Assembly (NCBI GenBank): GCA_031082225.1 | Contig: JAVHLG010000025.1 | Location: forward strand, 1-53,973 | DNA length: 53,973 nucleotides | Origin: Desulfovibrionaceae bacterium | GTDB lineage: Bacteria; Desulfobacterota; Desulfovibrionia; Desulfovibrionales; Desulfovibrionaceae | Reading direction: 5' to 3' | Shown: positions 15,078 through 40,051 of the stretch, piece by piece | How positions within the stretch are numbered: the first letter of the stretch is position 1 | Layout of the letters: every line of letters starts with the position of its first letter | Notes under the pieces: generated by a model | What the model was told of the DNA's origin: nothing | What the model saw: the letters and a program-made list of their open reading frames with translations, nothing else | Databases searched by the model: none | Program-made: the position numbers and the translations under genes

Positions 15078-15149
15078 AGCGGAAAGGGCAGGGGCGCAAA
15101 ACACGTGACGTTGATCCAGCATGGCTGGAAAGGATCGATATACCAAGGC

Positions 15150-16148
15150 ATGTTAAACGATAAAAGCATTCTCGTGACGGGCGGCACAGGCTCCTTTGGC
15201 ACGGAGTTCATCAGGACGACGCTACGGTCCTACAAACCGAAACGACTGATCGTCTTCAGCCGGGATGAGCTCAAGCAGTACGAGATGTCCCAGGTTTTTT
15301 CCGTGCAGGAGCATCCGTGCATGCGATATTTCATTGGCGATGTCCGGGATGCTGACCGGCTTCGCCGCGCCCTGCGGGGCGTCGACATCGTGGTGCATGC
15401 GGCCGCCCTCAAACAGGTGCCCACAGCGGAATACAATCCGGCTGAGGCCGTGAAGACGAACATCCAGGGCGCTGTCAATGTGGTCGATGCCTGTCTCGAC
15501 TGCGGCGTGTCGAAATGCATCGCCTTGAGTACGGACAAGGCCGTGAACCCCATCAATCTGTACGGCGCCACCAAGCTGTGCTCGGACAAGCTCTTTATCG
15601 CGGGCAACAGCTATTCCAGCGCGGACCAGACCGTGTTCTCCATCGTGCGCTACGGAAACGTCATGGGCAGCAGGGGCAGCGTCATCCCGCTCTTCCTGAA
15701 ACTGCGCGGGACCGGCCGCCTCCCGGTCACCGATCTGGAGATGACCCGGTTTTGGCTGGAGATTACGGACGGCATCCAGTTCGTTCTCAAAAGCCTGTCC
15801 ATGATGGAAGGGGGCGAAATATTCATTCCCAAGATCCCAAGCATGCGCGTGGTGGATCTGGCAAAGGCCATCTGCCCGGAGTGCGAACTGGACGTGGTGG
15901 GCGTCAGGCCGGGAGAAAAGATCCATGAAATCATGATTCCGGACGCGGAATCCCGCAACACCCTGGAATACGACACCCATTACGCCATCTACCCCATCGG
16001 CCGCAATCTCGACAGGTTTGTGGGCAAGGACAAGGGCAAACGGCTGCCCGAAGGTTTCGAGTACAGGTCGAACACCAACACCTGGTGGATAAGCAAGGAC
16101 CAGTTGCGGGAATGCGTAAAAAAATTATTTCCTACGGCAGACATCTGA
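15150..16148 (+). CDS. pseB: UDP-N-acetylglucosamine 4,6-dehydratase (inverting)
   Basis: First enzyme of pseudaminic acid synthesis: it converts UDP-GlcNAc to UDP-2-acetamido-2,6-dideoxy-beta-L-arabino-hexos-4-ulose with C5 inversion. The 332-residue extended SDR has the NADP motif LVTGGTGSFG (about 7-16), VVHAAALKQVPTAEYNP, ALSTDKAVNPINLYGATK with the catalytic YXXXK pattern, and RYGNVMGSRGSVIPLF. Length and motifs match PseB/FlaA1 rather than the membrane-bound retaining dehydratases. ATG 15150 has only a weak AAGG close by; upstream in-frame starts add no family sequence. It overlaps pseC by 37 bases. Confidence 0.93.
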   Translation: MLNDKSILVTGGTGSFGTEFIRTTLRSYKPKRLIVFSRDELKQYEMSQVFSVQEHPCMRYFIGDVRDADRLRRALRGVDIVVHAAALKQVPTAEYNPAEAVKTNIQGAVNVVDACLDCGVSKCIALSTDKAVNPINLYGATKLCSDKLFIAGNSYSSADQTVFSIVRYGNVMGSRGSVIPLFLKLRGTGRLPVTDLEMTRFWLEITDGIQFVLKSLSMMEGGEIFIPKIPSMRVVDLAKAICPECELDVVGVRPGEKIHEIMIPDAESRNTLEYDTHYAIYPIGRNLDRFVGKDKGKRLPEGFEYRSNTNTWWISKDQLRECVKKLFPTADI

Positions 16149-17266
16149 TTGACCAGGCCGACATCGACGCCGTGACCGAGGCGTTGCAGTCCGGCTGGCT
16201 GACCGGCGGCCCGGCGATCGTCGCCTTCGAGGAGGCCGTGGCCCGCCTGTGCGGCGCCGCGCACGCCGTGGCGGTATGCAACGGCACCGCCGCCCTGCAT
16301 TGCGCCATGCACGCCCTTCGCGTCGCTCCCGGGGACGAGGTGATCGTGCCCCCGATGACGTTTTGCGCCACGGCCAACGCCGTGGTCTATCAGGGGGGCG
16401 AACCCGTGTTCGCGGATGTTGCGCCAGGCACCCTGCTGCTCGATCCCGCTTCGGTGGAGGCCAGCCTGACGCCGCGCACCAAGGGGATCGTGGCCGTGGA
16501 TTATGCCGGTCAACCCTGCGACTATGACGCCCTGCGGGCCATCGCCGACGCGCATGGCCTCTTTCTGGCCGCAGACGCCTGCCATTCCCTGGGCGGGGCC
16601 TGGAACGGCCGTCCCGTGGGCAGTCTGGCGGACGTCACCTGCCTGAGCTTTCATCCAGTCAAGCACATCACCACCGGCGAAGGCGGCATGATCCTGTGCG
16701 ACGATCCGCTCCTTGCCGAAACCATGCGCCGCTTCCGCAACCACGGCATCGACGCCGACCCCGCCCGGCGGGCGGAACAGGGCGTCTGGCGGTATGACAT
16801 GGGATTTCTCGGCCACAACTACCGCATCACCGACATCCAGTGCGCCCTGGGCGGAAGCCAGCTTGACAAGCTGCCGCAATGGCTGACGCGCCGTCGGGAG
16901 GTGGCGGCCATGTATGCGCAGGCGCTGCGGAACATGGCGGACGTGTCGCCCCTGGAGGAGGTTCCAGGCGCGACCCACGCCCTGCACCTGTATGTGGTGC
17001 GCATCGCCTCGAGGCCCAAACCCTTGCGGGATGCGGTCCTTTCGGGGCTGCGGGCGCGGGGCGTGCAGGCCAACGTGCATTACGTCCCGGCCAACAGGCA
17101 TTCGTACTACCGGCAGCGGCTTGGGGACGGCGCATCCGGAACGCCGGTCTGCGACAAGGCGTTCGAGGAGATACTGAGTCTGCCCATGCACGCCGGACTC
17201 ACGGACGAGGACGTGCGGCATGTGCTGTGGGCGCTTGGCGAGGCCCTTTTGGAGGCCAGGGCATGA
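16112..17266 (+). CDS. pseC: UDP-4-amino-4,6-dideoxy-N-acetyl-beta-L-altrosamine transaminase
   Basis: PLP-dependent aminotransferase that aminates C4 of the PseB product using glutamate. The 384-residue protein is a DegT/DnrJ/EryC1/StrS member with the PseC features ISYGRHLIDQADIDAV at the N terminus, SGWLTGGPAIVAFE, and the Schiff-base lysine Lys184 in SFHPVKHITTGEGG. LGHNYRITDIQCALG and the C-terminal HYVPANRHSYYRQ also fit. ATG 16112 begins inside pseB; a GTG at 16085 is possible but adds only nine residues. The stop overlaps the next gene in ATGA. Confidence 0.93.
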   Translation: MRKKIISYGRHLIDQADIDAVTEALQSGWLTGGPAIVAFEEAVARLCGAAHAVAVCNGTAALHCAMHALRVAPGDEVIVPPMTFCATANAVVYQGGEPVFADVAPGTLLLDPASVEASLTPRTKGIVAVDYAGQPCDYDALRAIADAHGLFLAADACHSLGGAWNGRPVGSLADVTCLSFHPVKHITTGEGGMILCDDPLLAETMRRFRNHGIDADPARRAEQGVWRYDMGFLGHNYRITDIQCALGGSQLDKLPQWLTRRREVAAMYAQALRNMADVSPLEEVPGATHALHLYVVRIASRPKPLRDAVLSGLRARGVQANVHYVPANRHSYYRQRLGDGASGTPVCDKAFEEILSLPMHAGLTDEDVRHVLWALGEALLEARA

Positions 17267-18120
17267 GTGTGCGGTTTGTCGCTGAAATTTCCAGCAACCA
17301 CCATGCGGATCTGTCCCGCTGCCTGCAGTTCGTGGACACGGCGGCGGACATTGGCTGCGACGGCGTCAAATTCCAGTTGTTCCGTCTGGAGTCGCTGTTC
17401 GCGCCCGAGATCCTGGCCAGGTCGGAAAGGCACCGGATGCGCAAAGCCTGGGAGCTGCCGCCGCATTTTCTGCCCCACATCGCGGACCGGGCCAGACAGC
17501 GGGGCCTGGCCTTCGGCTGCACGCCCTTCGATCTGCGGGCCGTGGAGGAATTGACGCCCGTTGTGGATTTTTTGAAGATCGCCTCCTATGAACTCACCTG
17601 GCCGACCCTGCTTTCGGCCTGCGCCGCCACGGGACTGCCTGTGGTCCTGTCCACCGGCATGGCCGATCTTACGGAGACGAAAACGGCCGTGGATGTCTTG
17701 CGGGCGGCCGGGTGCGCCGACCTGACCCTTTTGCACTGCGTCTCCCGGTACCCGTCCCCCCCGTGCGAATCCAACCTGGCCTGCATCGAGACCTTGCGTA
17801 CGGCCTGCGGCTGCGACGCGGGATGGTCGGACCATTCGGTGTCGCCGGGCGTGATCCACCGGGCGGTGCATGCGTTTTCCGCCTCCATGGTCGAGTTCCA
17901 CCTGGACCTGGAGGGGGCGGGCGTGGAGTATCAGGGCGGCCATTGCTGGCTCCCGGAGCGGATGGCCCAGGTCATCAAGGACGTGAGGGACGGGCTTGGC
18001 GCTGACGGCGACGGCGTCAAGCGCCACGCGCCGTGCGAGGACGAGGAACGGTGGTGGCGCGCGGACCCGGAAGACGGGTTGCGTCCGTTTCAGCGCGTCA
18101 GGGCCGGGTTTGAAGGGTGA
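17263..18120 (+). CDS. pseI: Pseudaminic/sialic acid synthase-family protein without SAF domain
   Basis: NeuB-family TIM barrel that condenses phosphoenolpyruvate with a six-carbon amino sugar to give a nonulosonic acid. The 285-residue protein has VAEISSNHHADL (about 6-17), GVKFQLFR, the KIASYELTWP strand, VVLSTGMADLTET, LLHCVSRYPSP and the metal-binding GWSDHSVSPG. It ends about 60 residues short of standard PseI/NeuB: the C-terminal antifreeze-like (SAF) domain is absent, and the segment EFHLDLEGAGVEYQGGHCWLP replaces the usual EKHFTLD stretch. It may therefore use a different substrate or need a partner. Start and stop overlap neighbours, so it is co-translated. Confidence 0.82.
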   Translation: MSVRFVAEISSNHHADLSRCLQFVDTAADIGCDGVKFQLFRLESLFAPEILARSERHRMRKAWELPPHFLPHIADRARQRGLAFGCTPFDLRAVEELTPVVDFLKIASYELTWPTLLSACAATGLPVVLSTGMADLTETKTAVDVLRAAGCADLTLLHCVSRYPSPPCESNLACIETLRTACGCDAGWSDHSVSPGVIHRAVHAFSASMVEFHLDLEGAGVEYQGGHCWLPERMAQVIKDVRDGLGADGDGVKRHAPCEDEERWWRADPEDGLRPFQRVRAGFEG

Positions 18121-18131
18121 AGGAGACGGAC

Positions 18132-19259
18132 ATGCGTTGCATCGCCGTGGTGGAGGCCCGTATGGGCTCCACGCGTTTCCCGGGCAAGTCCCTGGCCCCC
18201 CTGGTCGGCCTGCCTGTTTTAGGGCATATCGGCAAGCGCCTCGCCGTATGCCCGGTCCTGGAGCGCATGGTGCTCGCCACCTCCGTCCTGCCGCGCGACG
18301 ACGTGCTGGCCGAGGCCGGGCCGAAATACGGCTTCGAGGTGGTCCGCGGCCCGGAAGACAACCTGCTCGCCCGGCATCTGCTGGCCCTTGAGCGCTACGA
18401 ACCGGACATCGTCGTCCGGGTCACCGGGGACTGCCCCCTGGCGGACCCGGACGTCATCGCCCGGCTGGTCGACCTGCTCCTGCAGACCGGCGCGGAATAC
18501 GCCACCGTCCGGGAAGGCGTCCCCTGCATCCATCAGGGCATCGATCCCTGCCGGAGTTCCGTGCTGCGACGGCTCGCCGCGCGCCACGGCGACGATCCCT
18601 TGGTGCGCGAGCATGTGACGTCATGGCTCAAATCCCGGCCGGACTTCGCCCCCATCGCCTATCTTGAGCTTATGGAGCGCGAAAAGTTCGCCGGGGCGCG
18701 CATCTGCATCGACACCCCGGCGGATCTGGCCTTTCTGGAGGCGGTCTACGCCGCCCTGGGCGCGGCCCCGGGCGAGGCGGACATCCGGGATGTGGCGGAC
18801 CTGTTGCGGGCCAGGCCCTGGCTCATGGACATCAACAGCCATGTGGCGCAAAAAACCGCCGGGCAACCCACCCTGCGCCTCGTCATCCAGGCCGGGGATG
18901 GCGCGGACGCGGCCTTTCTGGCCGCCGTGGCGGCCGTGTTGCGCGATGCCCATGGCCTGGGCGTGCGCGTGCACCAGCCTCCGGGACAGGCGCAAGAGCC
19001 GGAACTACGGCCGTTTGGCGTCGTGGCCGACCCCGGGGATTTTCAGCCGGACATTTTGCTTCGGGCCGCAGGTACCGGTTCGCCTGATCCAGGGGTTCCC
19101 GGGGTGGACCTGACGCAGGGGGACGGCCTGGCGCAGTTCGTCCCGGGGCCCGGACTGGGACTGGCCCCGGTCCAGACGGGCCTTGACGGGCCAGGAATCC
19201 GGACTGCGGCGGCCTATCTGGCGGCCTGCGCCCGGAAACGGCGCGAGGGCCCATGCTGA
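18132..19259 (+). CDS. SpsF-type cytidylyltransferase with a C-terminal extension
   Basis: The 375-residue protein starts with a CMP-sugar synthase-like domain (about 1-230): CIAVVEARMGSTRFPGKSL with the nucleotide-binding RXGSXRXPGK pattern, VVRGPEDNLLARHLLAL, and VVRVTGDCPLADPDVI. This is the SpsF group, thought to activate a nonulosonic acid with CTP. Residues 240-375 are a poorly conserved alanine/proline/glycine-rich extension (LRLVIQAGDGADAAFLAAV and onward) that I cannot assign. AAGGAGA precedes ATG 18132. A second, PseF/NeuA-like synthase is encoded at 39192-39899, so the two may activate different sugars. Confidence 0.8.
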   Translation: MRCIAVVEARMGSTRFPGKSLAPLVGLPVLGHIGKRLAVCPVLERMVLATSVLPRDDVLAEAGPKYGFEVVRGPEDNLLARHLLALERYEPDIVVRVTGDCPLADPDVIARLVDLLLQTGAEYATVREGVPCIHQGIDPCRSSVLRRLAARHGDDPLVREHVTSWLKSRPDFAPIAYLELMEREKFAGARICIDTPADLAFLEAVYAALGAAPGEADIRDVADLLRARPWLMDINSHVAQKTAGQPTLRLVIQAGDGADAAFLAAVAAVLRDAHGLGVRVHQPPGQAQEPELRPFGVVADPGDFQPDILLRAAGTGSPDPGVPGVDLTQGDGLAQFVPGPGLGLAPVQTGLDGPGIRTAAAYLAACARKRREGPC

Positions 19260-23447: not shown

Positions 23448-24491
23448 ATGGCGGTTTGTTCCCCCACGGCGCTTTTTCGGTGCGACGCCTCCCCCGAACG
23501 GGGCTACGGCCATGTCAGCCGCTGCCTGTCAGTGGCCCGGGCCATCCGGGCCGTGCGCCCGTGGCGGATCGTCTTCGCCCTGGGCTCGGATCACGCGGCG
23601 CAGCGGGTGCGTGGGCGCGGCCTGGAGGTCAGCGTCCGGTCGTCCGGCGAGGCTATGGCGGCCTGGCTGGAGCGCATCCTGCGCGAGCTCTCCCCGCAGG
23701 CCCTTTTTCTGGATGCGCCCCAGGGCTTTCCCGAGGCCCTGGCGGCCCGGCGTCATGCCGCAGGCGGCCTGACGGTCGTTTTGGACGACGCCGGTCCCCT
23801 GCGCCGACATGGGGACGCGGCCTATTACCCGCCCGCACCTGCGGCGTACGCCCTGGACTGGACGGGGTGCGGCACGGAGGTGTTGTGCGGATTTCAGTGG
23901 GCGCCGCTTGGGGAGGCCTTCGTCCGGCATCCCCGCGTCGCCCGGACCGGCCCGCCCAGGCTTTTGGTGACCATGGGAGGCTCGGACCCGGCCGGGTTGG
24001 CGCTCCGGGCGGCGGAGTTGCTTATGACGCCGCCCTTGAGCGGCACGCCCTGGTCCGCCCTGTTTGTGGTTGGGCCGTATTTTGCAATGAAACACGAGCT
24101 GGCCGTACGCCTGGACAGGCTGGACGGCCGGGCCGAGATGGTGGAGTCGCCACAGGACATGGGGGCGCTCATGGCGGCCAGCGACTTCGCGTTGGCCTCC
24201 TTTGGCGTCAGCGCCTACGAACTTGCGGCCAGCGGGGTTCCGGCCGCCTACTATTGCCTGACCGGGGAGCATGCCGCCATGGCCGGGGTTTTCGCCAGGG
24301 AGGGCATGGCCATAAGCTTCGGCGTTCATGACGCGGTGCGCCAGGACGAGGCGGCCCGACGGACGGCGGAGCTGTTGCGCGATCCCCTGGCGCTTGAGCG
24401 CATGGGCCGTCGGGCCGCCTCCCTGGTGGACGGCAAGGGGGCGCAACGGATAGCCGCCGACCTGGTGCGAAGGGTGGAGTCGCTGATATGA
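23448..24491 (+). CDS. pseG: PseG-like UDP-sugar hydrolase
   Basis: In the pseudaminic pathway PseG removes UDP from UDP-2,4-diacetamido-2,4,6-trideoxy-beta-L-altropyranose. The 347-residue GT-B protein has the family start FRCDASPERGYGHVSRCLSVA (the GHV histidine is catalytic), VVLDDAGPL, RLLVTMGGSDPAGLA and the late segment ASFGVSAYELAASGVPAAYY. Length and motifs agree with PseG/SpsG. AAAGGAAC precedes ATG 23448. It lies away from pseBC-pseI but in the same run of genes. Because PseH is not visible, the true substrate may carry a different 4-N group. Confidence 0.83.
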   Translation: MAVCSPTALFRCDASPERGYGHVSRCLSVARAIRAVRPWRIVFALGSDHAAQRVRGRGLEVSVRSSGEAMAAWLERILRELSPQALFLDAPQGFPEALAARRHAAGGLTVVLDDAGPLRRHGDAAYYPPAPAAYALDWTGCGTEVLCGFQWAPLGEAFVRHPRVARTGPPRLLVTMGGSDPAGLALRAAELLMTPPLSGTPWSALFVVGPYFAMKHELAVRLDRLDGRAEMVESPQDMGALMAASDFALASFGVSAYELAASGVPAAYYCLTGEHAAMAGVFAREGMAISFGVHDAVRQDEAARRTAELLRDPLALERMGRRAASLVDGKGAQRIAADLVRRVESLI

Positions 24492-25432
24492 GCACGCAAA
24501 GCCATTGGGAAGGGCACCACGGCCCTGTTCTGGAACGCCAGGGCGAATACACGGTCATCGCGTGCCAGGCCTGCGGCTTCGCGCACATCATTCCCATCCC
24601 GGATGCCGAGTCCCAGCAGCGCATGTACCGGGAAAAATACTACACCGAGATGATCCCGGACTACATCGAGCGGCATACGCGGGACCAGCCGTGGTGGGAT
24701 CACGTCCACGCCTCCCGGCTGAAGACCCTGGAGTCCCTGCTTCCCGTTGGAGCCAGGAGGATCCTGGATATCGGTTCCGGTCCCGGCGGCTTCCTGCGGG
24801 CGGCCCGGGACAGGGGCTGGGAGGGCCTGGGGTTCGAACCATCCGAGCAGGCCTGCCGCCATTGCGTCGGGACGCTTGGCCTGAATGTCCGCCAGGAGTT
24901 TTTCACCAGGGAGACGGACCTCGGCGAGGGAGCCTTCGACGCCGTCCACATGAGCGACGTGCTGGAGCACATACGTGACCCCCTGGCCATGCTGCGGGCC
25001 GTCCGCCGGGTGTTGCGCCCGGGCGGCGCGTGCTGCGTGGCCGTTCCCAACGACTTCAACCCCATCCAGACCGCCTTGCGCCGCGACCGGGGATTTTCTC
25101 CCTGGTGGGTCAGCACCCCGGATCATATCAACTATTTTACGTTCGACTCCCTGCAACGGCTCTTGGAACGCGGCGGATTCGAGGTGCGGCAGCGGGAGGC
25201 CAGTTTCCCCCTCGACGTGTTTTTGCTGTTGGGGATCGACTATACGGACGACGACGTCCTGGGCAGACAGTGCCACGGGTGGCGCATGCGCCTGGAGCGG
25301 ACATTGTACGATATGGGGCTGGGCGAGGCCCTGACGGACGTATACCGGGCCCTGGCGAAACACGACCTGGGGCGGCACGCCGTCCTGTACGCCACGGCGC
25401 GCGAAGGGGCCGCATCACCGGAGGAACGATGA
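24488..25432 (+). CDS. SAM-dependent methyltransferase with N-terminal cysteine motif
   Basis: A 314-residue protein. The first 45 residues hold the tail of a zinc-ribbon-like element (VIACQACGFAHIIPIPDAE). The methyltransferase core has RILDIGSGPGGFLRAARDRG (about 92-111), FDAVHMSDVLEHIRDPLAML and VLRPGGACCVAVPN, all standard class I motifs, followed by a helix-rich C terminus. The plan is that of the Methyltransf_23 family found in many glycan clusters. It overlaps its neighbours by 4 bases at both ends, so expression is coupled to pseG and the next methyltransferase. The acceptor is unknown. Confidence 0.82.
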   Translation: MSTQSHWEGHHGPVLERQGEYTVIACQACGFAHIIPIPDAESQQRMYREKYYTEMIPDYIERHTRDQPWWDHVHASRLKTLESLLPVGARRILDIGSGPGGFLRAARDRGWEGLGFEPSEQACRHCVGTLGLNVRQEFFTRETDLGEGAFDAVHMSDVLEHIRDPLAMLRAVRRVLRPGGACCVAVPNDFNPIQTALRRDRGFSPWWVSTPDHINYFTFDSLQRLLERGGFEVRQREASFPLDVFLLLGIDYTDDDVLGRQCHGWRMRLERTLYDMGLGEALTDVYRALAKHDLGRHAVLYATAREGAASPEER

Positions 25433-26622
25433 ACGACGAGGCCGGGGAATCCATCATTCACCTGGAGAAATGCCCGGGATGCGGCTATTCGGAGCGCATC
25501 CCCGTCTACGCCATCGCCTGGGAGCGATCCATCCCCGTGGCCGTCTGCGCGCGCTGCGCCCTGACCTACCAGGAGGCCCCGCTCAATGCCGCCGAGTTGG
25601 AGCGGTATTACCGGACCAACAGCATCTATCATTTCCACGGGCCGGGGTCGCGCCAGCACAAGCTGGTCGGGGCGCGCCACGCCTTTCTTGCCGGCCTGCT
25701 TCCCTCCCAGGACCGGCATCGGTGCGTGCTGGACGTGGGGTGCGGCTTCGGGGACTTCCTGGCCTCCTTCGACCCGTCCGCATGGCGCAGGATGGGCATC
25801 GAACTCAATGCCGAGCGGGCCGCCTTCGGCCGGGAGTCGCTTGGGCTGGAGATCATCGAACGGCCCCTGGAGTCGCCTGGGATAGAGCCGGGCAGCGTGG
25901 ATCTGCTGTGCGCCTTCGGGGTGATCGAGCATATGTACGACCTGCCGACGGTCTTCGCCTCCATGCATTCCTGTCTGGCCATGGGCGGCCTGGGCGTGGT
26001 GAACGTGGCCGATATCGACAAACCCGACCATGGCGTCAGCGATTATTTTTGCGCGGAGCACATCCTTTCCTTTTGCCCGGAAACCTTGCAATCCGCCATC
26101 CAGGCGGCGGGGTTCGAACTGGTCAAGACCGCCCCGGTCACTCCGGACGAAAACAAGGATGTCGGCTGCGTGTTCCGGAAGGTGCGCCAGGACTCTTTCT
26201 GGCGCGGCATGCGGGCCATGCCGGAACGGGCCGGGAGGCTGGCCGATGCGATCAGGGTCTATGTCCGCAGGCGGCAGGAGTACATCGCAGGGATGCGGCG
26301 GCGTTTCGAAGAGGCGGGGCTTTTTGATCCGTCGCTGCGGGTCGGCGTCTACGGCGCGGGCGGGCATACGGAACAGATGCTGGAAGGCGTTCCGGAACTG
26401 CGCACGGTCCGCTTCTTTTTCGATTCCGACCCCGCGAAACGCGGGCGGCCGTTTCTGGGGGGGGCCATCCACAGCCCGGAGGAGATCCCGACGCTTGGGC
26501 TCGACGCGGTGCTGATCTCGAGCCGGGCCTTCGAGGAGGAGATATTGGCCGCCCTGACCCGGACCCTGCCGTCCTCCATCCGGGTCATTCCCATGTACCG
26601 GGAGTTCGGGGAGCGGTCATGA
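25429..26622 (+). CDS. Sugar C-methyltransferase-like three-domain protein
   Basis: The 397 residues are laid out like deoxysugar C-methyltransferases (NovU/TylC3 type): an N-terminal zinc-binding element (CPGCGYSE and CARC, about 11-45), a SAM-binding core with CVLDVGCGFGDFLASFD (about 100-116) and DLLCAFGVIEHMYDLP, and a C-terminal Rossmann-like domain with RVGVYGAGGHTEQMLEG (about 303-319) and FFFDSDPAKRGRPFLG. Enzymes of that type methylate carbon 3 of keto sugars. The similarity is in architecture, so C-methylation is an inference. GGAGGAA precedes ATG 25429 and the start overlaps the previous stop. Confidence 0.72.
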   Translation: MNDEAGESIIHLEKCPGCGYSERIPVYAIAWERSIPVAVCARCALTYQEAPLNAAELERYYRTNSIYHFHGPGSRQHKLVGARHAFLAGLLPSQDRHRCVLDVGCGFGDFLASFDPSAWRRMGIELNAERAAFGRESLGLEIIERPLESPGIEPGSVDLLCAFGVIEHMYDLPTVFASMHSCLAMGGLGVVNVADIDKPDHGVSDYFCAEHILSFCPETLQSAIQAAGFELVKTAPVTPDENKDVGCVFRKVRQDSFWRGMRAMPERAGRLADAIRVYVRRRQEYIAGMRRRFEEAGLFDPSLRVGVYGAGGHTEQMLEGVPELRTVRFFFDSDPAKRGRPFLGGAIHSPEEIPTLGLDAVLISSRAFEEEILAALTRTLPSSIRVIPMYREFGERS

Positions 26623-27878: not shown

Positions 27879-28048
27879 ACGTGCTGCCCGTTTTTCCGGA
27901 TATGCCCCTCAAGGCTTCAAAACAGCCCGTGGGGGGCGTATGCCTCGCGGTCTGCCAGCGTGGGCATGGTCATGAGGTGTCCGCCTCCGGCATGGTCATC
28001 CAACCAGACTCCCGTGAGGGCAATGCGGGCGATGCACATGAAGAGTAA
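27875..28048 (+). CDS. Short ORF at the edge of a low-GC insert, possible gene remnant
   Basis: This 57-codon frame begins with an ATGA overlap just like its upstream neighbours and ends where the AT-richer radical SAM gene begins. The sequence MNVLPVFPDMPLKASKQPVG and onward resembles no family I know. It could be the 5' stub of an operon gene whose rest was replaced by the low-GC gene, or chance coding. The overlap with the next start means it could still couple translation. Confidence 0.35.
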   Translation: MNVLPVFPDMPLKASKQPVGGVCLAVCQRGHGHEVSASGMVIQPDSREGNAGDAHEE

Positions 28049-29171: not shown

Positions 29172-29221
29172 TTCGTCGAATCGTCGTGGCGGGTGTTGAA
29201 GCCGTCCCGGGAATGGCTGGA

Positions 29222-29250
29222 TTAGAAATGCGGATGGGATCTAGTACAAT
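29222..29250 (+). promoter_or_regulatory. Possible promoter before the Dxs-like operon
   Basis: TACAAT (29245-29250, five of six -10 bases) lies 17 bases after TTAGAA (29222-29227, a weak -35). It is just after the low-GC radical SAM gene and before the short ORF at 29260. Confidence 0.3.
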
Positions 29251-29259
29251 CAATACATA

Positions 29260-29424
29260 GTGAACATGCGCAATGCATTTCTGAGCTCAGACGCCATGGA
29301 GCGGTTGCGCCAGCACGTGCGGACCTCCATCCACAGCAAGGTCCGTCGCGCCATGGGCGAAATGGAGCGTAGATGGGAACAGCGCGAAACAGCCGTGGCC
29401 GCCGCATCCGGCCCTGGCGCATAA
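29260..29424 (+). CDS. Short charged ORF before the Dxs-like gene
   Basis: GTG 29260 (or ATG 29266) opens a frame of 54 codons that ends 16 bases before the Dxs-like start. The product is highly charged and mostly helical in character (MERLRQHVRTSIHSKVRRAM, then GEMERRWEQRE). It has no signal peptide or membrane segment and matches no family I recognise. No clear Shine-Dalgarno is present. It might be a small partner protein of the cassette or a chance frame in high-GC DNA. Confidence 0.35.
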   Translation: MNMRNAFLSSDAMERLRQHVRTSIHSKVRRAMGEMERRWEQRETAVAAASGPGA

Positions 29425-29440
29425 CGAAAGGAGGGGGTCC

Positions 29441-31207
29441 ATGACCTCTCTGACAAGCCTGACCCCGGCGGCGCTCAAGGCCATGCCGCCGGACGCCCTG
29501 CCGCAGTTGGCGGCGCACATGCGGGCGTTTCTCCTGGATACCGTCTCCCGGACGGGCGGGCATATCGGGGCCAACCTGGGCACGGTGGAGTTGGCCATCG
29601 CCTTGCACTACGTCTTCGATTCCCCTGCCGACGCCATCTTCTGGGATACCGGGCATCAAGGATACGCGCACAAGCTGATCACCGGCCGGGCGTCGCTGTT
29701 TGCGACGCTCAACACCAAAGGCGGCATGAACCGCTTCGTGTCCAGCGCGGAAAGCGACCATGACGCCATGGAGGCCTCCCACGCCGGCACCTCGCTGTCC
29801 ATGGCCCTGGGCGCGGCCCTGGCCCGGCGCATCCTCGGCCGGTCGGGCTGGACCATTCCCGTCATCGGCGACGGGGCCCTGTGCGAAGGCGTCGCCCTGG
29901 AGGCCCTGAACCATATCTCCGTGGAGCCGGGGGTGCGGGTGGCCGTGGTGCTCAACGACAACGGCTACGCCATCAGCCCCGGGTTCGGGGCGCTCCACAA
30001 CCATCTCCAACAACGGGGCCTTGGCGCAACCGGGCCCGATGCGCTGTTCACTTCCCTGGGCTACGAGACCATCGGCCCGGTGGATGGGCACGACATCGCC
30101 GCCCTGACGGCCGCCTTTGAGCGCGTGCGCCAGTCGGACAGGGTGGCGTTGGTCCATGTGAAGACGGAAAAGGGGCGCGGCTATCCCCCGGCCGGGGCGC
30201 ACCCGGTCAGGATGCACTTCTCCTTTCCCTTCGACCTGGGGACCGGGGCCCTCACCCAGACCCAGGCCGCGAGGTGCTACCAGGACGTGGCCGCCGAGGC
30301 CGTGGGCGAGGTCATGGACGAGGATGAGACCGTGGCGGCCATCACGCCCTCCACCCTGTACGCCACCGGCCTGGCCCCGGTGTTCGCCCGCCATCCCTCG
30401 CGCTGTTTCGATCCCGGCATGGAGGAGCAGCACGCAATGACCATGGCCGTGGGCCTGGCCAAGGCCGGGGTGAAGCCCGTGATTTTTTATCAGTCCACCT
30501 TCATGCAACGGGCCTTCGACCAGCTCTTTCACGACGTGTGCTTCGCCGCGCATCCCGTGCTGCTTCTGGCTGCGCGTTCGGGTTTCGCCGGGTACGACAA
30601 TCCCACCCACCACGGGATCTATGATCTTTCCTACCTGCAATGTCTCCCGAACCTGCGCATCTTCTACCCCAAGGACGGGTTCGAACTGCGGGCCATGGTC
30701 CTGCGCCACCTGCGGGATCTGCAGGGGCCCACCCTGGTGCTCATGCCATACGGCCCCCTGGACGAGTTCGATCCCGGGCCCCTTGGCGAGTCGGCCCGCA
30801 GTCTGGACCAGCCGGAGATCGTCCTGCCCGGGCGGGACGTGCTCCTTGTGGCCGTGGGCAACACGTTCGCCGCAGCCAGGGAGGCGGCCATGCTGTTGCG
30901 GCAGGCCGGAGTGGACGCGGGGCTTGTCAACGTGCGCCGGGTGAAGCCCCTGCCCGTCGAGGCGCTTGCCCCGCTTCTCACGGCCTGCCCGAACATCGTG
31001 ACCATTGAGCAAGGCGTGCTGGATGGCGGTTTCGGGGCCAGCGTGGCGGCCATGATGCAGGATCGCCGCATCACGCCGGACCTCTTGCGCATCGGGCTGC
31101 CCTGCGCCTTTGTGGAGCCCGGGTCCAATCAGGAACTGTGCGAGGCCTATGGCCTGACCGGCCAGGGCATCGCCAAACGCGTGATGGAGAGGCGAAGCGG
31201 CGTATGA
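29441..31207 (+). CDS. 1-deoxy-D-xylulose-5-phosphate synthase-like ThDP enzyme, divergent
   Basis: The 588-residue protein is a full-length Dxs homologue, about 30 residues shorter than usual. ThDP and catalytic features are present: GGHIGANLG with His41, WDTGHQGYAHK with His72, the Mg-ThDP motif GDGALCEG (143-150) to LNDN (171-174), EEQHAMTMAVGLA with the catalytic glutamate, FMQRAFDQ with Arg357, and ARSGFAGYDNPTHHG with the Arg, Asp and His that match E. coli Arg420, Asp427 and His431. Two substrate-pocket positions differ: the tyrosine before STF is Gln351, and the conserved RYPRG, holding a phosphate-binding arginine, reads LMPYG (434-438). I infer another acceptor than glyceraldehyde 3-phosphate. 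AGGAGGGGG precedes ATG 29441. Confidence 0.88.
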   Translation: MTSLTSLTPAALKAMPPDALPQLAAHMRAFLLDTVSRTGGHIGANLGTVELAIALHYVFDSPADAIFWDTGHQGYAHKLITGRASLFATLNTKGGMNRFVSSAESDHDAMEASHAGTSLSMALGAALARRILGRSGWTIPVIGDGALCEGVALEALNHISVEPGVRVAVVLNDNGYAISPGFGALHNHLQQRGLGATGPDALFTSLGYETIGPVDGHDIAALTAAFERVRQSDRVALVHVKTEKGRGYPPAGAHPVRMHFSFPFDLGTGALTQTQAARCYQDVAAEAVGEVMDEDETVAAITPSTLYATGLAPVFARHPSRCFDPGMEEQHAMTMAVGLAKAGVKPVIFYQSTFMQRAFDQLFHDVCFAAHPVLLLAARSGFAGYDNPTHHGIYDLSYLQCLPNLRIFYPKDGFELRAMVLRHLRDLQGPTLVLMPYGPLDEFDPGPLGESARSLDQPEIVLPGRDVLLVAVGNTFAAAREAAMLLRQAGVDAGLVNVRRVKPLPVEALAPLLTACPNIVTIEQGVLDGGFGASVAAMMQDRRITPDLLRIGLPCAFVEPGSNQELCEAYGLTGQGIAKRVMERRSGV

Positions 31208-31968
31208 ACGCGCAACAGGGCAGATTGGCGGGGAAATCGGCGATTGTGACCGGCTCCTCCCGGGGCCTGGGCCGGGCCATCGCCCTGGCCTTCGCCCGGG
31301 AAGGGGCCCGGGTGGCCGTAACGTATCAGTCCGCCCGGGACGAGGCCGAGGCGGCGGCGGCCGAGATCCGCGCGGCTGGCGGGGAATGCCTGGTCCTGCC
31401 CCTGGACGTGCGCAGCCGGGATTCGGTCCGGGCGTGCTTCAAAAATGCCCACGAAGGGCTTTGGAGCATCGATATCCTGGTGAACAACGCCGGGATCAAT
31501 CGCCGGGGCCCGTTCGAGGAGGCCACGGACGAGGACTGGGATCAGGTCATGGAGGTCAACCTCAAGGGGCCGTTCATCTGCTCCCAGGAGGTCTTTGCGT
31601 ACATGAAGCGCCAGGGCGGCGGCCGGATCATCAACATCTCCTCGGTCGCCGGGCAGTATCACGGCCCGAAGACCGTCCACTACGCCGTCTCCAAGGCGGG
31701 CCTCAACAGCCTGACCAAGGTCGTGGCCCGCTATGGCGCGCCGTACAACATCCTGGTGAACGCCGTGGCCCCGGGCCTTGTGCTGACGGATCAGACCAGG
31801 GACGAGTTCGACTCTCCGGCGGGAAAGGCGGTCATCGACATGACCCTGCTCAAGCGGCCCGGCGAGATGCAGGACGTGACCAGCGCCTGTCTGCTGTTGG
31901 CCGAGGATGCGCAACGCTACATGACGGGACAGGTGCTCAGCGTGAGCGGAGGGGCCTACCTTGGCTGA
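31204..31968 (+). CDS. Short-chain dehydrogenase/reductase (FabG-like)
   Basis: The 254-residue classical SDR has the cofactor motif AIVTGSSRGLGRAIA (about 13-27), the structural ILVNNAGINRRGPF, the catalytic serine in IINISSVAG and YXXXK in VHYAVSKAGL, and the C-terminal AQRYMTGQVLSVSGG. It should reduce a ketone with NADPH or NADH. It overlaps the Dxs-like gene in ATGA and the ATP-grasp gene by 8 bases, so these three are translated together. In this context reduction of the ketone produced by the ThDP enzyme is a reasonable guess, whereas a role in fatty acid synthesis is less likely. Confidence 0.88.
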   Translation: MNAQQGRLAGKSAIVTGSSRGLGRAIALAFAREGARVAVTYQSARDEAEAAAAEIRAAGGECLVLPLDVRSRDSVRACFKNAHEGLWSIDILVNNAGINRRGPFEEATDEDWDQVMEVNLKGPFICSQEVFAYMKRQGGGRIINISSVAGQYHGPKTVHYAVSKAGLNSLTKVVARYGAPYNILVNAVAPGLVLTDQTRDEFDSPAGKAVIDMTLLKRPGEMQDVTSACLLLAEDAQRYMTGQVLSVSGGAYLG

Positions 31969-33205
31969 CCGGCACGATCTGGCCGGGCGCTGGGTGTTGC
32001 TGCTTGGCGCCAGCCAGGACCAGCTTTTCGCCATCAAAACGGCCCGGGACATGGGGCTGCGGGTTCTTGTCGTGGACCAGAATCCGGACTCCCCCGGTTT
32101 CGCCCTTGCGGATGCGCACGCCCTGGTGTCCACCCGCGACGTTGCCGCGCTTGTGTCCCTGTGCGACGCGTACCGGGCCCGGGGACGCCGCATGGAAGGC
32201 GTGCTGGTGATGGGCAGCGACATCCCCGGGGTGGTGGCGGAGGTGTCCCTGCAACTCGGTTCGCCCGGCGTCAGCCTGGAAACGGCGCGCCTGGCCAGCC
32301 ACAAGCTGCTGATGAAGGAGCGGCTGGCGGCGGTCGGCGTGCCGGTTCCCTGGTTCACGGAGGTGCGGGATGCGGCCCAGTTGCGCGGCCTCCTTGGCCG
32401 ACGCGGCCCCCGCATGGTCATCAAGCCCGTGGACCGGTCAGGGGCCAGGGGGGTGTTTGTGGTCACGCCGCAGTCGGATCTGGAGGGGCTTTTCCGGATG
32501 TCCCGCAGCCTGTCCTTTGGCGGGCAGGTGATGGCGGAAGATTTTCTGGAGGGGCCCCAGATCAGCACGGAAAGCATCATGTGGCGCGGCAGGGCCTATA
32601 CCGTGGGGTATGCGGACAGGAACTACGAGATGCTTGGGCGGTTCGCCCCGCATATCATCGAAAACGGCGGCGAAGTCCCCGGCCTTCTTTCCCCGGCGCA
32701 GAGGCAGGCCGTGAACGATCTCGTGGAGCACGCCGCACTGGCCCTGGGCATTGAAAACGGCGTGGCCAAGGGCGACGTGGTGCTGACCGCCGAGGGGCCG
32801 AAGCTTATCGAAATGGCGGCCCGGCTGTCGGGCGGGGATTTTTCGGAAAGCCTCATCCCCCTGGGCTGCGGCGTGAATATCGTGGCCGAGGCCTTAAAAA
32901 TCGCCATGGGGGGCGAGCCGGACCTGGAGGCCTTGCGGCCACGCCTGGCACGCTGGGTGGCGAACCGGTATTTCTTCCCGCCCCCGGGGGTGTTGCGGGC
33001 CGTGCGCGGGGTCGAAACCCTGGCCGATCTTCCCTGGCTGCACAAGTTCGCCCTGTGGCGCAAGGTCGGCGACACCCTCCCGGCCATCACCTGCCACGGC
33101 GACCGGGCCGGGGTCTTTCTCGTTTCCGCCGACAGCCGCGAGGCCCTGCTCGAACGCGTCCGCCAGATCTACGAAACCGTCCATCTCGATGTCGCGCCGT
33201 CATGA
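31961..33205 (+). CDS. ATP-grasp domain ligase
   Basis: The 414-residue protein has the three parts of ATP-grasp carboxylate-amine ligases: an N-terminal pre-ATP domain (WVLLLGASQDQLFAIKTAR, about 11-29, and VLVVDQNPDSPGFALAD), a central ATP-binding domain (SHKLLMKERLAAVGVPVP, then MVIKPVDRSGARGVFVV) and the metal/phosphate region KLIEMAARLSGGDFSESL. Such enzymes join an acid to an amine through an acyl phosphate. The start is TTG 31961 with GGAGGGG six bases upstream. It lies between the SDR and a GH57 protein. A possible role is N-acylation of an amino sugar, which is unproved. Confidence 0.85.
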   Translation: MADRHDLAGRWVLLLGASQDQLFAIKTARDMGLRVLVVDQNPDSPGFALADAHALVSTRDVAALVSLCDAYRARGRRMEGVLVMGSDIPGVVAEVSLQLGSPGVSLETARLASHKLLMKERLAAVGVPVPWFTEVRDAAQLRGLLGRRGPRMVIKPVDRSGARGVFVVTPQSDLEGLFRMSRSLSFGGQVMAEDFLEGPQISTESIMWRGRAYTVGYADRNYEMLGRFAPHIIENGGEVPGLLSPAQRQAVNDLVEHAALALGIENGVAKGDVVLTAEGPKLIEMAARLSGGDFSESLIPLGCGVNIVAEALKIAMGGEPDLEALRPRLARWVANRYFFPPPGVLRAVRGVETLADLPWLHKFALWRKVGDTLPAITCHGDRAGVFLVSADSREALLERVRQIYETVHLDVAPS

Positions 33206-35280
33206 CCCCTGCCTGCGCCTACGCGATCTTTCATCTCAATCTGGCCTATTCCTCCGTGGACGAGGCGCAGCACGCCCGGATCGTCGAGGCCTGCTATCGG
33301 CCGATCCTGCGCTTGGCCGCCGGGCGCGGCATCCCCGTCGGCGTGGAGGCCACGGGCTATACCCTGGAATGCATCGCGGCCATCGCCCCCGGCTGGATTG
33401 CGGAGCTTCGTGCCCTGATCCGGGCGTGCCTGTGCGAATTCGTCGGCTCAGGACTGGCCCAGATCATCGGTCCCCTTGTCCCGGCCCGGGTGGTGGAGGC
33501 CAACCTGCGACTGGGCAACCGGGTCTACGAGCGTTTGCTCGGTGCCCGGCCCGCCGTGGCCATGCTCAACGAGCAGGCGTTTTCCGCAGGCATCGTGCCG
33601 CTTTATCGCGAAGCGGGCTACCAGGCCGTGGTGGCGGAGTGGGAGAACCCCATGGCCGCGAACCCGGATTGGCCACCGCAGGGATGGCGCCTGCCGTGCG
33701 CGGCGGCGAACCGGGGCGAGCCCATGCCCGTGCTGTGGAACTCCTGCATCATCAACCAAAAGCTGCAACGGCTGGCCCACGGCGACCTGACGCAGAAGGA
33801 ATATCTCGACTATATAAGGCCCCTGGCCGCAAGCGGCGGCGGGACATTGCCCCTGTACGCCGGGGATGCGGAGATATTTAATTTCCGGCCCGGGCGATAT
33901 GCCTCCGAGGCCCCCCTGCCTGTCCGCGACGAATGGCTGACCATCTTTGACGCCTTCACGCGACTGCGGGACGAGGGGGCCTGCGAGTTTGCCTTGCCGA
34001 CCCGGGTCTTGGCCCGGCAGTCTTCCCGGATGACCCTGCGGCTGGAGACCGCCTGCCAGCCGATCCCCGTGAAAAAGCAGTACAAATACAATCCCACGCG
34101 CTGGGCCGTCACCGGCCGTGACGATGTGGGCCTGAACACGGCCTGCTGGCGGCTGTTTCATGCCCTGGACGGCGACGACCGGGCGGATCAGGCGGCCTGG
34201 AGGGAGCTTTGCCTGTTTTGGGCCAGCGATTACAGAACCCACATCACCGACGCCCGCTGGGAGGACGTCCGTCGCCGGATGCAGGCCGGGCTTGCCGCCC
34301 TGAAACCGGCCAAAGGCCAGCCGGGTCACGACGCGTCCCTGTCTGCGGTGTCGGCCCACGCTGTCCGGGATGGCCGCCTTCTTGAGCCGGGCCACGACAT
34401 GTCCCTGTCTGCGGTGTCGGCCCACGCCACCCGGGATGGCCGTTTCCTTGATCTGCGGGCCGAATCCGTCAGTGTCCGGCTCAACATGCGCAAGGGCTTG
34501 GCCGTGGACGCCGCCTGGTTCCCTGAGGCCAGCCCCCATGCCCTGTTCGGCTCCCTCCCGCACGGGCATTTTGAAGACCTTTCGTTGGCGGCGGACTTTT
34601 TCAGCGGCCATCTCGTCCTTGAGCGGGCCGGCCTGCAGAAGGAGACGGACCTGGGGATCGTGGCCCCGGAGGTGGCCGTCACGGCCGAGGCCGTGGCCGT
34701 TTCCTGCGCCATGGCCGGTTTCCCCGTGCCCTTGCGCAAGACGGTGCGCCTGTCGCGCCTGCGGCCGGAGATCTCCATCCGCTACGATTTCGACTGGGCC
34801 TCGTTGCAGCACGCCTGCCTGCGTCTGGGGCATGTGACGCTGCTGCCGTCGGCCTTCGATGCGGGCACGCTGGCCTACGCCACCCACAACGGCGGCCGGG
34901 AGGCGGAATTCTTTCCCCTGGGCGGCCGGGAGTTCAATCATGGGCAGCCCGTATCCTCCCTGGTGTCCGCCAGGCAGTGCCTGGGCATGACCAGGGGGAT
35001 TTTCTGGATCGGCGACGCCTCCTTGATGCTGGAAATCGAGGTGGACCAGACCGTCGCGGCCGGGGTTCCCATGGTCCTGCATCGCAAGGCCCGGCCGGAT
35101 TTCCTGTTCCGGTGCTGGTTCTCCCTGCGCGAGACGGATGAGACCTCCCAGGCCGCCCGGCCGGGGTCGTTCCAGGGCATGGGAGGGTTTTCCATGACCA
35201 TACGGGCGCGTAAAACCGGCGATTGCGGCATCGGACCGGGCTGCGGGCCGTTGGTCGGCAGCGGCGGTCCGTCGGCCTGA
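33202..35280 (+). CDS. Glycoside hydrolase family 57-like protein
   Basis: The 692-residue protein starts with a GH57-type (beta/alpha)7 barrel: YAIFHLNLAYSSVDEAQHA (about 6-24), VGVEATGYTLECIAAI, CEFVGSGLAQIIGPLVP and AMLNEQAFSAGIVPLYREAG, where the glutamate of NEQ is a candidate catalytic residue. Residues 370-417 contain two copies of a 22-residue repeat. The C-terminal 270 residues are strand-rich, like the beta-sandwich of alpha-mannosidase relatives. No signal peptide is visible, so it would act in the cytosol on a glycan intermediate, perhaps as a transferase or a deacetylase rather than a degrading enzyme. It overlaps the ATP-grasp gene by 4 bases and closes the operon. Confidence 0.78.
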   Translation: MTPACAYAIFHLNLAYSSVDEAQHARIVEACYRPILRLAAGRGIPVGVEATGYTLECIAAIAPGWIAELRALIRACLCEFVGSGLAQIIGPLVPARVVEANLRLGNRVYERLLGARPAVAMLNEQAFSAGIVPLYREAGYQAVVAEWENPMAANPDWPPQGWRLPCAAANRGEPMPVLWNSCIINQKLQRLAHGDLTQKEYLDYIRPLAASGGGTLPLYAGDAEIFNFRPGRYASEAPLPVRDEWLTIFDAFTRLRDEGACEFALPTRVLARQSSRMTLRLETACQPIPVKKQYKYNPTRWAVTGRDDVGLNTACWRLFHALDGDDRADQAAWRELCLFWASDYRTHITDARWEDVRRRMQAGLAALKPAKGQPGHDASLSAVSAHAVRDGRLLEPGHDMSLSAVSAHATRDGRFLDLRAESVSVRLNMRKGLAVDAAWFPEASPHALFGSLPHGHFEDLSLAADFFSGHLVLERAGLQKETDLGIVAPEVAVTAEAVAVSCAMAGFPVPLRKTVRLSRLRPEISIRYDFDWASLQHACLRLGHVTLLPSAFDAGTLAYATHNGGREAEFFPLGGREFNHGQPVSSLVSARQCLGMTRGIFWIGDASLMLEIEVDQTVAAGVPMVLHRKARPDFLFRCWFSLRETDETSQAARPGSFQGMGGFSMTIRARKTGDCGIGPGCGPLVGSGGPSA
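34321..34452 (+). repeat. Tandem duplication of 66 bases within the GH57-like gene
   Basis: Units 34321-34386 and 34387-34452 are nearly identical and in frame. They encode PGHDASLSAVSAHAVRDGRL plus two residues, and PGHDMSLSAVSAHATRDGRF plus two residues. The unit lies between the barrel and the C-terminal domain. Confidence 0.92.
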
Positions 35281-35384: not shown

Positions 35385-35413
35385 GATCCGGCCGGGAGCC
35401 TCCCGCCGGGATC
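35385..35413. terminator. Hairpin between the two converging glycan operons
   Basis: GATCCGGCCGGGA (35385-35397) and TCCCGCCGGGATC (35401-35413) can pair at 11 of 13 positions around a GCC loop. It overlaps the stop codon of the minus-strand gene. No T-run follows on either strand. Confidence 0.35.
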
Positions 35414-36518
35414 AGGGGAGCATGCCGTTTTGCTCCAGGGTCCGGATGATGAGGTCCGCCCGATGCGGCTTGTCGTGCGAGGCGTACCACTTCGCCTGGC
35501 GCATGAACACCTCTGCGGGCGGAGCCGGGTGCTCTCGCGACAGGGCGCAGACGTCCTCGACGATGGCGGTCAGCCGGAGCAGGCTGGCACGATCGCGCAC
35601 GTCGTCGAATCCCCATCCGAAATCCACAATGCGCCGGTTGCGGGGATGGTCCGGGGGGCTCCATTCCCTGAGGGCCCGGACGAGCAATTTGTAGTAGCCA
35701 TTATGCGCCTTTGAACATCCTATGGTGGTGTCGCGCAGGATGATCGCCTCATCCGCGACAAGCCTTGTCTTGCAGACGCCGATGCGAACGGGTTTTCCGA
35801 GATGCATGGCGTATCCCACGGCCGAGGTCTGGCCATAGCACAGAACCGCATCAGCCAGTTCAAGCAGGAACCGTGACCTGTCGAGAAAGATGTCGTCAAA
35901 TATGTGGCCGGCGCTGACGCAGGTGAGACCGACCTGGTGGCACTGGTCAAGGACATCGCGCGACACGTCCTTCCAATAAACACAGACAAGTATCGTATCG
36001 AAGGGCTGGCCCTGGTCCCGGGCGTCGTTCGCCAACCATTCCCAGGAAAACAGGCTTTGCACGTGATGCGTGGAGTGGGGAGGGAAGACGAGCAAGACCT
36101 TTCCCAGGGACTGTTTGAGGGCCTTGAATTGGTGCAGGTCGCGAAAGCTGCGGGCGTAGTGGATGGCCGGGCCGATGGGGAAACGGACCTGCGGGGTTTT
36201 CCCGCGCAGGAGTCTGCAGGAATGTCGGCTGTTCGTGAAAATGGCCGGAAAGACGGAATCCCTGTCCACCTTCCATATGTATCCCGGATACCCTGAGCCG
36301 TGCGGCAGCACCGCCTTTATGGGATAGTGCGGAGGGAGTCCCAGGAACCGTTTGACCATGGCCGCGTGGCCGTAAAAGTCGTTGCTTTCATGGATCTCCG
36401 GCGTCTTCAAGGGCCTGTCGGTCATGATCCGCAGGGGGTCGAACGCCTCGATGGGCATGGATGGCGTTTCTGTTTGAGTCATCGGCGCTTTTCCCGTTTC
36501 GTGTTGCTGTCCGGTCAT
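35412..36518 (-). CDS. Unknown protein, possible glycan-assembly GT-B relative
   Basis: A 368-residue protein I cannot assign. It has a Rossmann-like strand-turn KVLLVFPPHSTHHVQSL (about 140-156), a second VVCVYWKD-like strand (ILVCVYWKDVSRDVLDQC), and a GT-B-type late motif DAVLCYGQTSAVGYAMHLGKPV (about 226-247), in which a site for a nucleotide sugar or a shared signal region is common in capsule and teichoic-acid enzymes. The first 20 residues (MTGQQHETGKAP) may not be translated: an in-frame ATG at 36482 is an equal candidate and neither has a good Shine-Dalgarno. It is the last gene of the minus-strand arm. Confidence 0.6.
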   Translation of the reverse strand: MTGQQHETGKAPMTQTETPSMPIEAFDPLRIMTDRPLKTPEIHESNDFYGHAAMVKRFLGLPPHYPIKAVLPHGSGYPGYIWKVDRDSVFPAIFTNSRHSCRLLRGKTPQVRFPIGPAIHYARSFRDLHQFKALKQSLGKVLLVFPPHSTHHVQSLFSWEWLANDARDQGQPFDTILVCVYWKDVSRDVLDQCHQVGLTCVSAGHIFDDIFLDRSRFLLELADAVLCYGQTSAVGYAMHLGKPVRIGVCKTRLVADEAIILRDTTIGCSKAHNGYYKLLVRALREWSPPDHPRNRRIVDFGWGFDDVRDRASLLRLTAIVEDVCALSREHPAPPAEVFMRQAKWYASHDKPHRADLIIRTLEQNGMLP

Positions 36519-36636
36519 GAAGGTCCGGCGGAGGAGGAACCCGTCGCGTCCGCAGGGCGCGCCGGAGATCTCCTGCGTGCCGCATGACCGCCTGACGGCG
36601 TCCGCCGGGAGGATGCGTTATCTGCCGCGTTTACGG

Positions 36637-39899: not shown

Positions 39900-40014
39900 G
39901 TGCATTCCTCCGAAAAGGCGAGGGTTGCGGGATTTCGTCATGCCGCCTTTGCGGCATAAAACGTGACCGCCGGAGCCAGGAGGGGCCGCCTCCCGAGGTC
40001 GCAGTCACGAAGAA

Positions 40015-40051
40015 GGGCCGACCACCAGGTCCAGGGACAGGAAGTCGGCCC
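40015..40051 (-). terminator. Inverted repeat in the gap 39900-40077
   Basis: GGGCCGAC (40015-40022) and GTCGGCCC (40044-40051) form a perfect 8-base stem with a 21-base loop, 26 bases past the stop of the minus-strand radical SAM gene. A smaller perfect hairpin, ATGCCGC-CTTT-GCGGCAT, lies at 39940-39957. Neither has a T-run, so termination is uncertain. Confidence 0.3.

Follow-up and report, generated by a model that had tools for sequence, protein, structure and literature searches.

What is a gene resembling dxs, whose product Dxs starts isoprenoid synthesis in bacteria, doing in a sugar-building locus? We addressed this question in a Desulfovibrionaceae bacterium (GenBank assembly GCA_031082225.1), using positions 1 to 53,973 of contig JAVHLG010000025.1; these 53,973 nt are referred to here as the window. 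The gene in question, encoding a protein that we call DxsL, opens a cassette of four consecutive genes that overlap by 4, 8 and 4 bases, all on the + strand. A preliminary description made from the letters of the window had listed these genes with the same coordinates and overlaps, and we reproduced them from the open reading frames (ORFs). All four family assignments are backed by Pfam.

29441..31207, + strand: DxsL, a Dxs-derived thiamine diphosphate (ThDP) enzyme of 588 aa (ORF, Pfam, alignment, tree)
31204..31968, + strand: short-chain dehydrogenase/reductase (SDR) of 254 aa, ATG start at 31204 (ORF, Pfam, alignment)
31961..33205, + strand: ATP-grasp protein of 414 aa with a LAL_C2 domain, carboxylate-amine ligase type, TTG start at 31961 (Pfam, profile)
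33202..35280, + strand: GH57-type protein of 692 aa, ATG start at 33202 (Pfam, profile)

The existence of the cassette and of the altered DxsL residues is confirmed. The comparisons below give good support to a Dxs apparently repurposed in a glycan pathway, and we lean towards a pathway in which DxsL would act as a ThDP carboligase other than a 1-deoxy-D-xylulose 5-phosphate (DXP) synthase, yield a polyhydroxy acid together with the SDR, and leave the ligase to join this acid through an amide bond to a nonulosonic acid, a sialic-acid-like sugar.

DxsL was aligned with Dxs of Escherichia coli (NP_414954.1, L045). As the preliminary description had stated, Gln351 of DxsL aligns with E. coli Y392, and LMPYG stands where the Dxs family has RYPRG, placing DxsL Y437 at R478. 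In addition, N91 aligns with R99, a change absent from that description, and a short loop follows DxsL residue 190. The accessible text of PMC11019550 names R420, R478 and Y392 as the binding pocket for glyceraldehyde 3-phosphate (GAP), describes contacts between R99 and inhibitors, and lists 1400 uM as the Km of the R478A enzyme for GAP. Across the alignment, the Y392 column holds glutamine in 10/10 DxsL and tyrosine in 43/43 Dxs, the R478 column tyrosine in 10/10 DxsL and arginine in 43/43 Dxs, and the R475 column lacks arginine in all 10 DxsL and has it in all 43 Dxs; the R99 column holds asparagine in the nine DxsL rows with a letter there and arginine in 43/43 Dxs. The ordinary Dxs proteins of two genomes, L036 and L041, are not among these 43 rows. 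Because the changes at 392 and 478 separate 10/10 DxsL from 0/43 Dxs, they are not due to chance, and the GAP pocket is altered in DxsL as proposed. Other residues are kept: E370, H299, D427, H431 and R398 in 10/10 DxsL, and H49 and H80 in the nine rows with a letter there.

Phylogenetic analysis of the 10 DxsL and 21 of the 43 Dxs split the two groups by one branch, with a Shimodaira-Hasegawa-like approximate likelihood ratio (SH-aLRT) support of 100. Four proteins (from G497, G547, G723 and G727) considered as DxsL orthologs grouped with Dxs and were dropped; a second dxs on a Paraburkholderia plasmid (dxs_2, L078 8001-9782), which has ilvB and a gene for 2-oxoglutarate dehydrogenase E1 nearby, also groups with Dxs. 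A search for a separate housekeeping gene, suggested in the preliminary description, found a second, ordinary dxs in the source genome (C119:8698-10539) and an ordinary Dxs in 9/9 other DxsL genomes tested (8 scan genomes and G213), 10/10 including the source. These results indicate that DxsL is not the housekeeping Dxs. Its Pfam domains include DXP_synthase_N, Transket_pyr and Transketolase_C, with no TPP_enzyme family among the six listed, and thus differ from the decarboxylase-superfamily architecture of YerE-like enzymes. An AlphaFold model of DxsL, built from an 8-row alignment, had a mean predicted local distance difference test (pLDDT) score of 73.9 with low-confidence loops, and its best Foldseek matches were all DXP synthase chains (TM about 0.5, root-mean-square deviation about 17); neither was used for claims on the pocket. 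DxsL resembles DXP synthases in fold matches and in many active-site residues, and differs from them in its replaced Y392, R478 and R99, its place in a glycan locus and the presence of an ordinary dxs beside it.

DxsL is rare in the sampled groups. Among 149 related genomes including the source, the best match outside the source genome (5.6e-77) was at the level of ordinary Dxs, and three genomes had no match. Scanning species genomes turned up 8 relatives at 45-61% identity, in records named Thermodesulfovibrionia, Magnetospirillum aberrantis, Deltaproteobacteria, Alphaproteobacteria, Syntrophomonas, 'bacterium', Thermincola and Bacteroidetes. At 1e-90, 3/395 genomes of the source phylum matched, two of them real (the source and G213) and one, G497, grouping with Dxs; at 1e-110, 4/289 genomes of the Magnetospirillum class matched, and only the already known one was real. 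Such scatter over phyla suggests that DxsL spread by horizontal transfer.

Pseudaminic-acid-type genes lie upstream of the cassette:

15105..16148, + strand: PseB, UDP-GlcNAc 4,6-dehydratase (inverting); TIGR03589 508 bits, above the cut-off of 408
16085..17266, + strand: PseC-like aminotransferase, true start probably slightly downstream; TIGR03588 422.7 bits, below the cut-off of 423.5
17263..18120, + strand: short NeuB of 285 aa with only the Pfam NeuB domain, used as the module marker (Pfam, searches)
18117..19259, + strand: SpsF-like cytidylyltransferase (Pfam CTP_transf_3), a type that we take to be SpsF
23448..24491, + strand: PseG-like protein, approximate start within an ORF that runs from 23286; TIGR03590 81.4 bits against a cut-off of 153.55
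24488..25432, + strand: methyltransferase with relatives in several sister loci (locus comparison)
25429..26622, + strand: methyltransferase of 397 aa (locus comparison; size next to SfmD)

Measured against the canonical pseudaminic acid pathway, PseB of the window is above its cut-off, and PseC, PseG and PseI (149.5 bits, cut-off 340.25) are below theirs.

We then compared 14 loci carrying this module (the window, L036-L044, L051 and L063-L065), several of which end at contig ends or at the fetched length. Twelve of them have a short NeuB with 55% identity or more, 13 a relative of PseG, 12 of PseC, 12 of the SpsF type and 9 of PseB. Conservation of gene order, another check suggested earlier, was borne out: the order DxsL, SDR, ATP-grasp, GH57 is identical in L036 and L040, L042 has one additional methyltransferase gene in the cassette, and L037, L039, L041 and L051 carry genes for DxsL, an SDR and an ATP-grasp protein, the last with 44-53% identity. 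Recurrence of the pocket changes and of the cassette across phyla rules out a chance or artefactual origin of the signal. Proteins with DUF4910/DUF2172, presumably of the kind of Campylobacter Cj1295, are encoded near the module in L039 (3045-4325) and L042 (906-2252).

Entering the loci through the short NeuB gave a different ThDP enzyme in some of them. This protein was found in 6/395 genomes of the phylum, with nothing further at 1e-50, and in 1/348 genomes of a sample of the Thermincola phylum, the already known one. The carriers with DxsL are the source and G213; G320, G367 and G485 have genes for a split transketolase, SDR, ATP-grasp and GH57 proteins at the short-NeuB locus and no DxsL at 1e-90. 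With the 3-kb contig of G303 left out, 5/5 readable loci reached in this way encoded all three of ThDP enzyme, SDR and ATP-grasp protein, and 4/5 encoded GH57, the G213 contig ending about 1 kb past its ATP-grasp gene. A Solidesulfovibrio carbinolicus plasmid, found via GH57, has the order SDR, split transketolase, methyltransferase, ATP-grasp, GH57, pseB, pseC. Altogether, a ThDP enzyme accompanies the short NeuB (at least 55% identity) in 12/12 loci, 8 with DxsL (one also with split transketolase) and 4 with split transketolase only, a count that is partly circular because only DxsL or GH57 had led to 7 of these loci. The ThDP slot of the cassette is thus swapped between DxsL and split transketolase. 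In the column of E. coli R478, four complete cassette-type transketolase subunits have arginine and DxsL has tyrosine; the C subunit of L065, the one subunit searched, is closest to the split transketolase of C. hydrogenoformans.

Some loci hold more than one such enzyme. The Bacteroidetes locus L043 (7634-15282) has DxsL and an additional split transketolase pair in one cassette, L044 a second transketolase C subunit (21692-22630) with lysine at the R478 column, and L125 a second C subunit or full pair (4147-5906). The second subunits or pairs of L044 and L125 make two two-carbon (C2) transfers possible, so that some loci may carry out both.

To see how far these associations extend, ordinary PseI loci served as the control. 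PseI was above cut-off in 16/198 genomes searched in the same phylum. The control stretches covered about 10 kb on each side and, as short NeuB and DxsL stand 11 kb apart in the window, were widened to about 20 kb where contigs allowed (22 further stretches); 2 of the 16 contigs were merely 5-7 kb long. Relatives of the SDR, ATP-grasp and GH57 proteins were found around 0/16 at 1e-8. One weak ThDP relative was seen (1/16; L136 9010-9858, next to a PseC-like gene), matching the transketolase C subunit at 33% over 147 aa (E 1.2e-13) and DxsL at 23% (E 7.6e-9).

As for the remaining cassette proteins, the YxxxK pair (Y160/K164) was kept in 11/11 aligned SDRs. The best match of the ATP-grasp profile was 4dim, followed by the L-amino acid ligase BL00235 (3vot), with most of the length covered. 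GH57 residues E124 and D222 are invariant in 7/7 sequences and align with E123 and D214, which we take to be catalytic, of the Thermococcus litoralis 4-alpha-glucanotransferase 1k1w, the sole match among solved structures (E 0.01). Since the aligned Glu and Asp are kept, the GH57 protein is probably an active glycosidase or transferase.

The carriers also point to flagellin. Maf-type proteins (PF01973) were above cut-off in 12/13 carrier genomes, the exception being the Bacteroidetes, and in 7 carriers Maf shares a contig with the cassette or its NeuB, no more than about 28 kb away. Maf was also positive in 4/14 control genomes; all four positives are archaea, and these 14 are therefore not a matched control. 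Flagellin genes are present in L037 and L063, and ORFs judged by eye to be flagellin-like occur after GH57 in L125 and past the Maf gene in L126; a flagellin-like candidate in L039 had no Pfam match. PseH was above cut-off in 0/13 carrier genomes.

A gene set of similar make-up has been published. According to the accessible text of PMC3765264, Shewanella oneidensis sfmABCDE encodes a NeuB-domain protein (290 aa), an ilvB-annotated ThDP protein (581), a protein of the 3-oxoacyl-ACP-reductase type (255), a methyltransferase (395) and an ATP-grasp protein (412). Deleting any one of sfmA-D abolishes motility on soft agar. The species has PseB and PseC and is reported to lack clear forms of PseH, PseG, PseI and PseF. 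Its flagellin glycan most likely consists of a 274-Da mono-N-acetyl nonulosonic acid to which C9H16O7, C10H18O7 or C11H20O7 is attached, an outer group left unsolved in that 2013 paper. The window likewise has a NeuB domain, ThDP enzyme, SDR, methyltransferase and ATP-grasp gene close together, at nearly equal protein sizes (285, 588, 254, 397 and 414 aa), with PseB and a PseC-like protein. It differs in that the ThDP enzyme is of the Dxs type and not ilvB-annotated, that GH57 is not among the five sfm genes, and that the genes are spread over about 16 kb where Shewanella has one operon. An ATP-grasp protein in flagellin glycan building is also known from type B flagellin of Clostridioides difficile, where the CDR20291_0245 mutant lacks the peptidylamido-sugar extension of the flagellin glycan; that system has another sugar, and no transketolase is named in the accessible text (PMC5207246). 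We found no Dxs-type version of such a cassette in the literature, weak evidence of novelty as subscription papers and preprints were mostly outside coverage. The pseudaminic-acid-type loci, Maf in most carriers, the split-transketolase sister loci and sfmABCDE all go beyond the preliminary description.

What, then, does DxsL do? With donor, acceptor, product and order of steps as we infer them, DxsL would move a two-carbon unit, presumably acetyl from pyruvate, onto a carbonyl acceptor without the phosphate of GAP, and the SDR would reduce the new hydroxy-ketone. The ATP-grasp ligase would activate the resulting polyhydroxy acid and amide-link it to the amino group normally acetylated by PseH, on a pseudaminic-acid-type backbone that PseB, the PseC-like and PseG-like proteins, short NeuB and the SpsF-like protein may build. 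The sugar would be destined for flagellin via Maf transferases in most carriers, and GH57 may trim or transfer a sugar at some step. With a free amine left by missing PseH and a ligase of the carboxylate-amine type, the simplest reading is an acid linked as an amide; this reading is ours and not a claim of PMC3765264. The roles given to reductase and ligase in the preliminary description are upheld; its branch on a nucleotide sugar is less likely than an acid side chain on the nonulosonic acid amino group, and its interpretation as a whole is partly supported.

A number of observations weigh against this pathway. The Pse genes are incomplete across the 14 loci, mostly on short stretches; GH57 was not seen in the examined stretches of L037, L038, L039, L041 and L051, and its role is unexplained by the pathway. 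In L038 the ATP-grasp proteins are only 27% identical and the stretch ends inside the SDR gene, L036 has DxsL beside a NeuB of another type (31% identical to short NeuB), and L041 has no NeuB within the 11 kb examined. Maf matches of the source genome are on contigs other than that of the window. Sub-cut-off PseH matches occur in 11/13 carrier genomes, including one of 69 bits (cut-off 93.1) on another contig of the source genome, so that a diverged PseH is possible in the carriers. DxsL retains R420 in 10/10, unlike the other GAP-pocket residues R478 and Y392, and scores 509 bits on the curated Dxs model TIGR00204 (cut-off 465.95); as DxsL passes, this model fails to tell it from Dxs. The DxsL reaction itself is assigned from sequence and context, and the likeness of sfmABCDE to the window concerns annotation and size, not sequences. 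In S. oneidensis the sfmC (reductase) deletion keeps a visible flagellum, and cells without sfmE (ligase) are still flagellated and swim but spread less (accessible text of PMC3765264), so these two steps are not strictly needed there.

Of the other explanations, YerE-like branching survives best. Here DxsL would attach acetyl to a nucleotide keto sugar at its keto carbon, reduction of the branch would fall to the SDR, and the ligase would add an unrelated acid to an amine. A 4-keto sugar is at hand as the product of PseB, and in yersiniose synthesis a reductase likewise acts after the ThDP enzyme. The accessible text of a 2025 review (PMC12247030) describes two-carbon branching of keto sugars by YerE-like decarboxylases, reports that split-gene transketolases have been proposed for it too, and groups the formers of tertiary alcohols as decarboxylase (YerE-like), alpha-keto acid dehydrogenase 2 and transketolase enzymes; kinds related to these, IlvB-annotated and split transketolase, occupy the ThDP slot. 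Like them, DxsL is a ThDP enzyme in a sugar pathway, but it sits in a nonulosonic-acid locus with a ligase, and that text names no Dxs-derived enzyme for branching. The inner 274-Da sugar of S. oneidensis fits an unbranched mono-N-acetyl pseudaminic acid, so that any branch must be in the outer group, and no further nucleotide-keto-sugar enzyme common to the loci appeared among the compared queries, no systematic search having been made. We regard this branching as possible but doubtful.

The favoured acid-side-chain pathway can be given a specific form, for which we hold only a tentative and rather low expectation. DxsL would transfer acetyl from pyruvate to a 3-deoxy-2-keto acid, for example 3-deoxy-heptulosonate, at its keto carbon; reduction by the SDR would give a branched polyhydroxy acid, and the ligase would join it to the 7-amino group of pseudaminic acid, with a hydroxyacetyl version in split-transketolase loci. 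By arithmetic, 3-deoxy-heptulosonate plus acetyl gives, after reduction, C9H18O8, the acid form of the C9H16O7 increment of S. oneidensis. A formula count showed that this match is non-unique: 3,9-dideoxynononic acid, named for another bacterium in the accessible text of PMC9912281, and a hydroxyethyl-branched heptose fit too. A C7 acid made by short NeuB and then acetylated would also fit C9H18O8, but S. oneidensis is reported without PseI, and therefore its NeuB-domain protein probably makes the pseudaminic acid core; this route was retained only as a non-unique formula match.

It is improbable that DxsL supplies a C2-extended or deoxy precursor for a variant backbone built by short NeuB: the two co-occur tightly, but the NeuB beside DxsL in L036 is of the distant type, and the inner sugar of S. 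oneidensis resembles an ordinary pseudaminic acid core. Least probable of all is that DxsL is simply a second DXP synthase, as its passing TIGR00204 score and kept R420, R398, H431 and D427 are set against the loss of Y392 and R478 in 10/10 and R99 in 9/9, an ordinary dxs in 10/10 DxsL genomes and the split transketolase that takes this slot in sister loci.

Several neighbouring features were also recorded. A radical SAM/SPASM gene (27960-29171) stands directly upstream of the cassette within a G+C dip to 0.596 (27001-30000); a similar dip, to 0.589, lies at 6001-9000, and the other 3-kb blocks have 0.64-0.70. Downstream, a convergent - strand group (35412-42788) encodes two proteins that match no Pfam family (368 and 889 aa), a cytidylyltransferase that resembles PseF but scores below cut-off, a B12-binding radical SAM protein and a group 1 glycosyltransferase. 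A 1054-aa ORF at 48980-52144 has no Pfam match, and a 1315-aa ORF overlaps it on the opposite strand.

The cassette occurs in several very distantly related bacterial groups, and the swap between Dxs-type and transketolase-type enzymes, with IlvB in Shewanella by annotation, points to a common two-carbon chemistry. Ketone-accepting ThDP enzymes are wanted as biocatalysts; the accessible text of the 2025 review has no mention of deoxyxylulose, DXS or DXPS and names no Dxs-derived enzyme of this kind (PMC12247030). As DxsL passes the curated dxs model and is probably no DXP synthase, genes for glycan synthesis can be mistaken for isoprenoid genes. The proposed acid side chain also offers a testable structure for the outer group of the flagellin glycan left unsolved in 2013 (PMC3765264).

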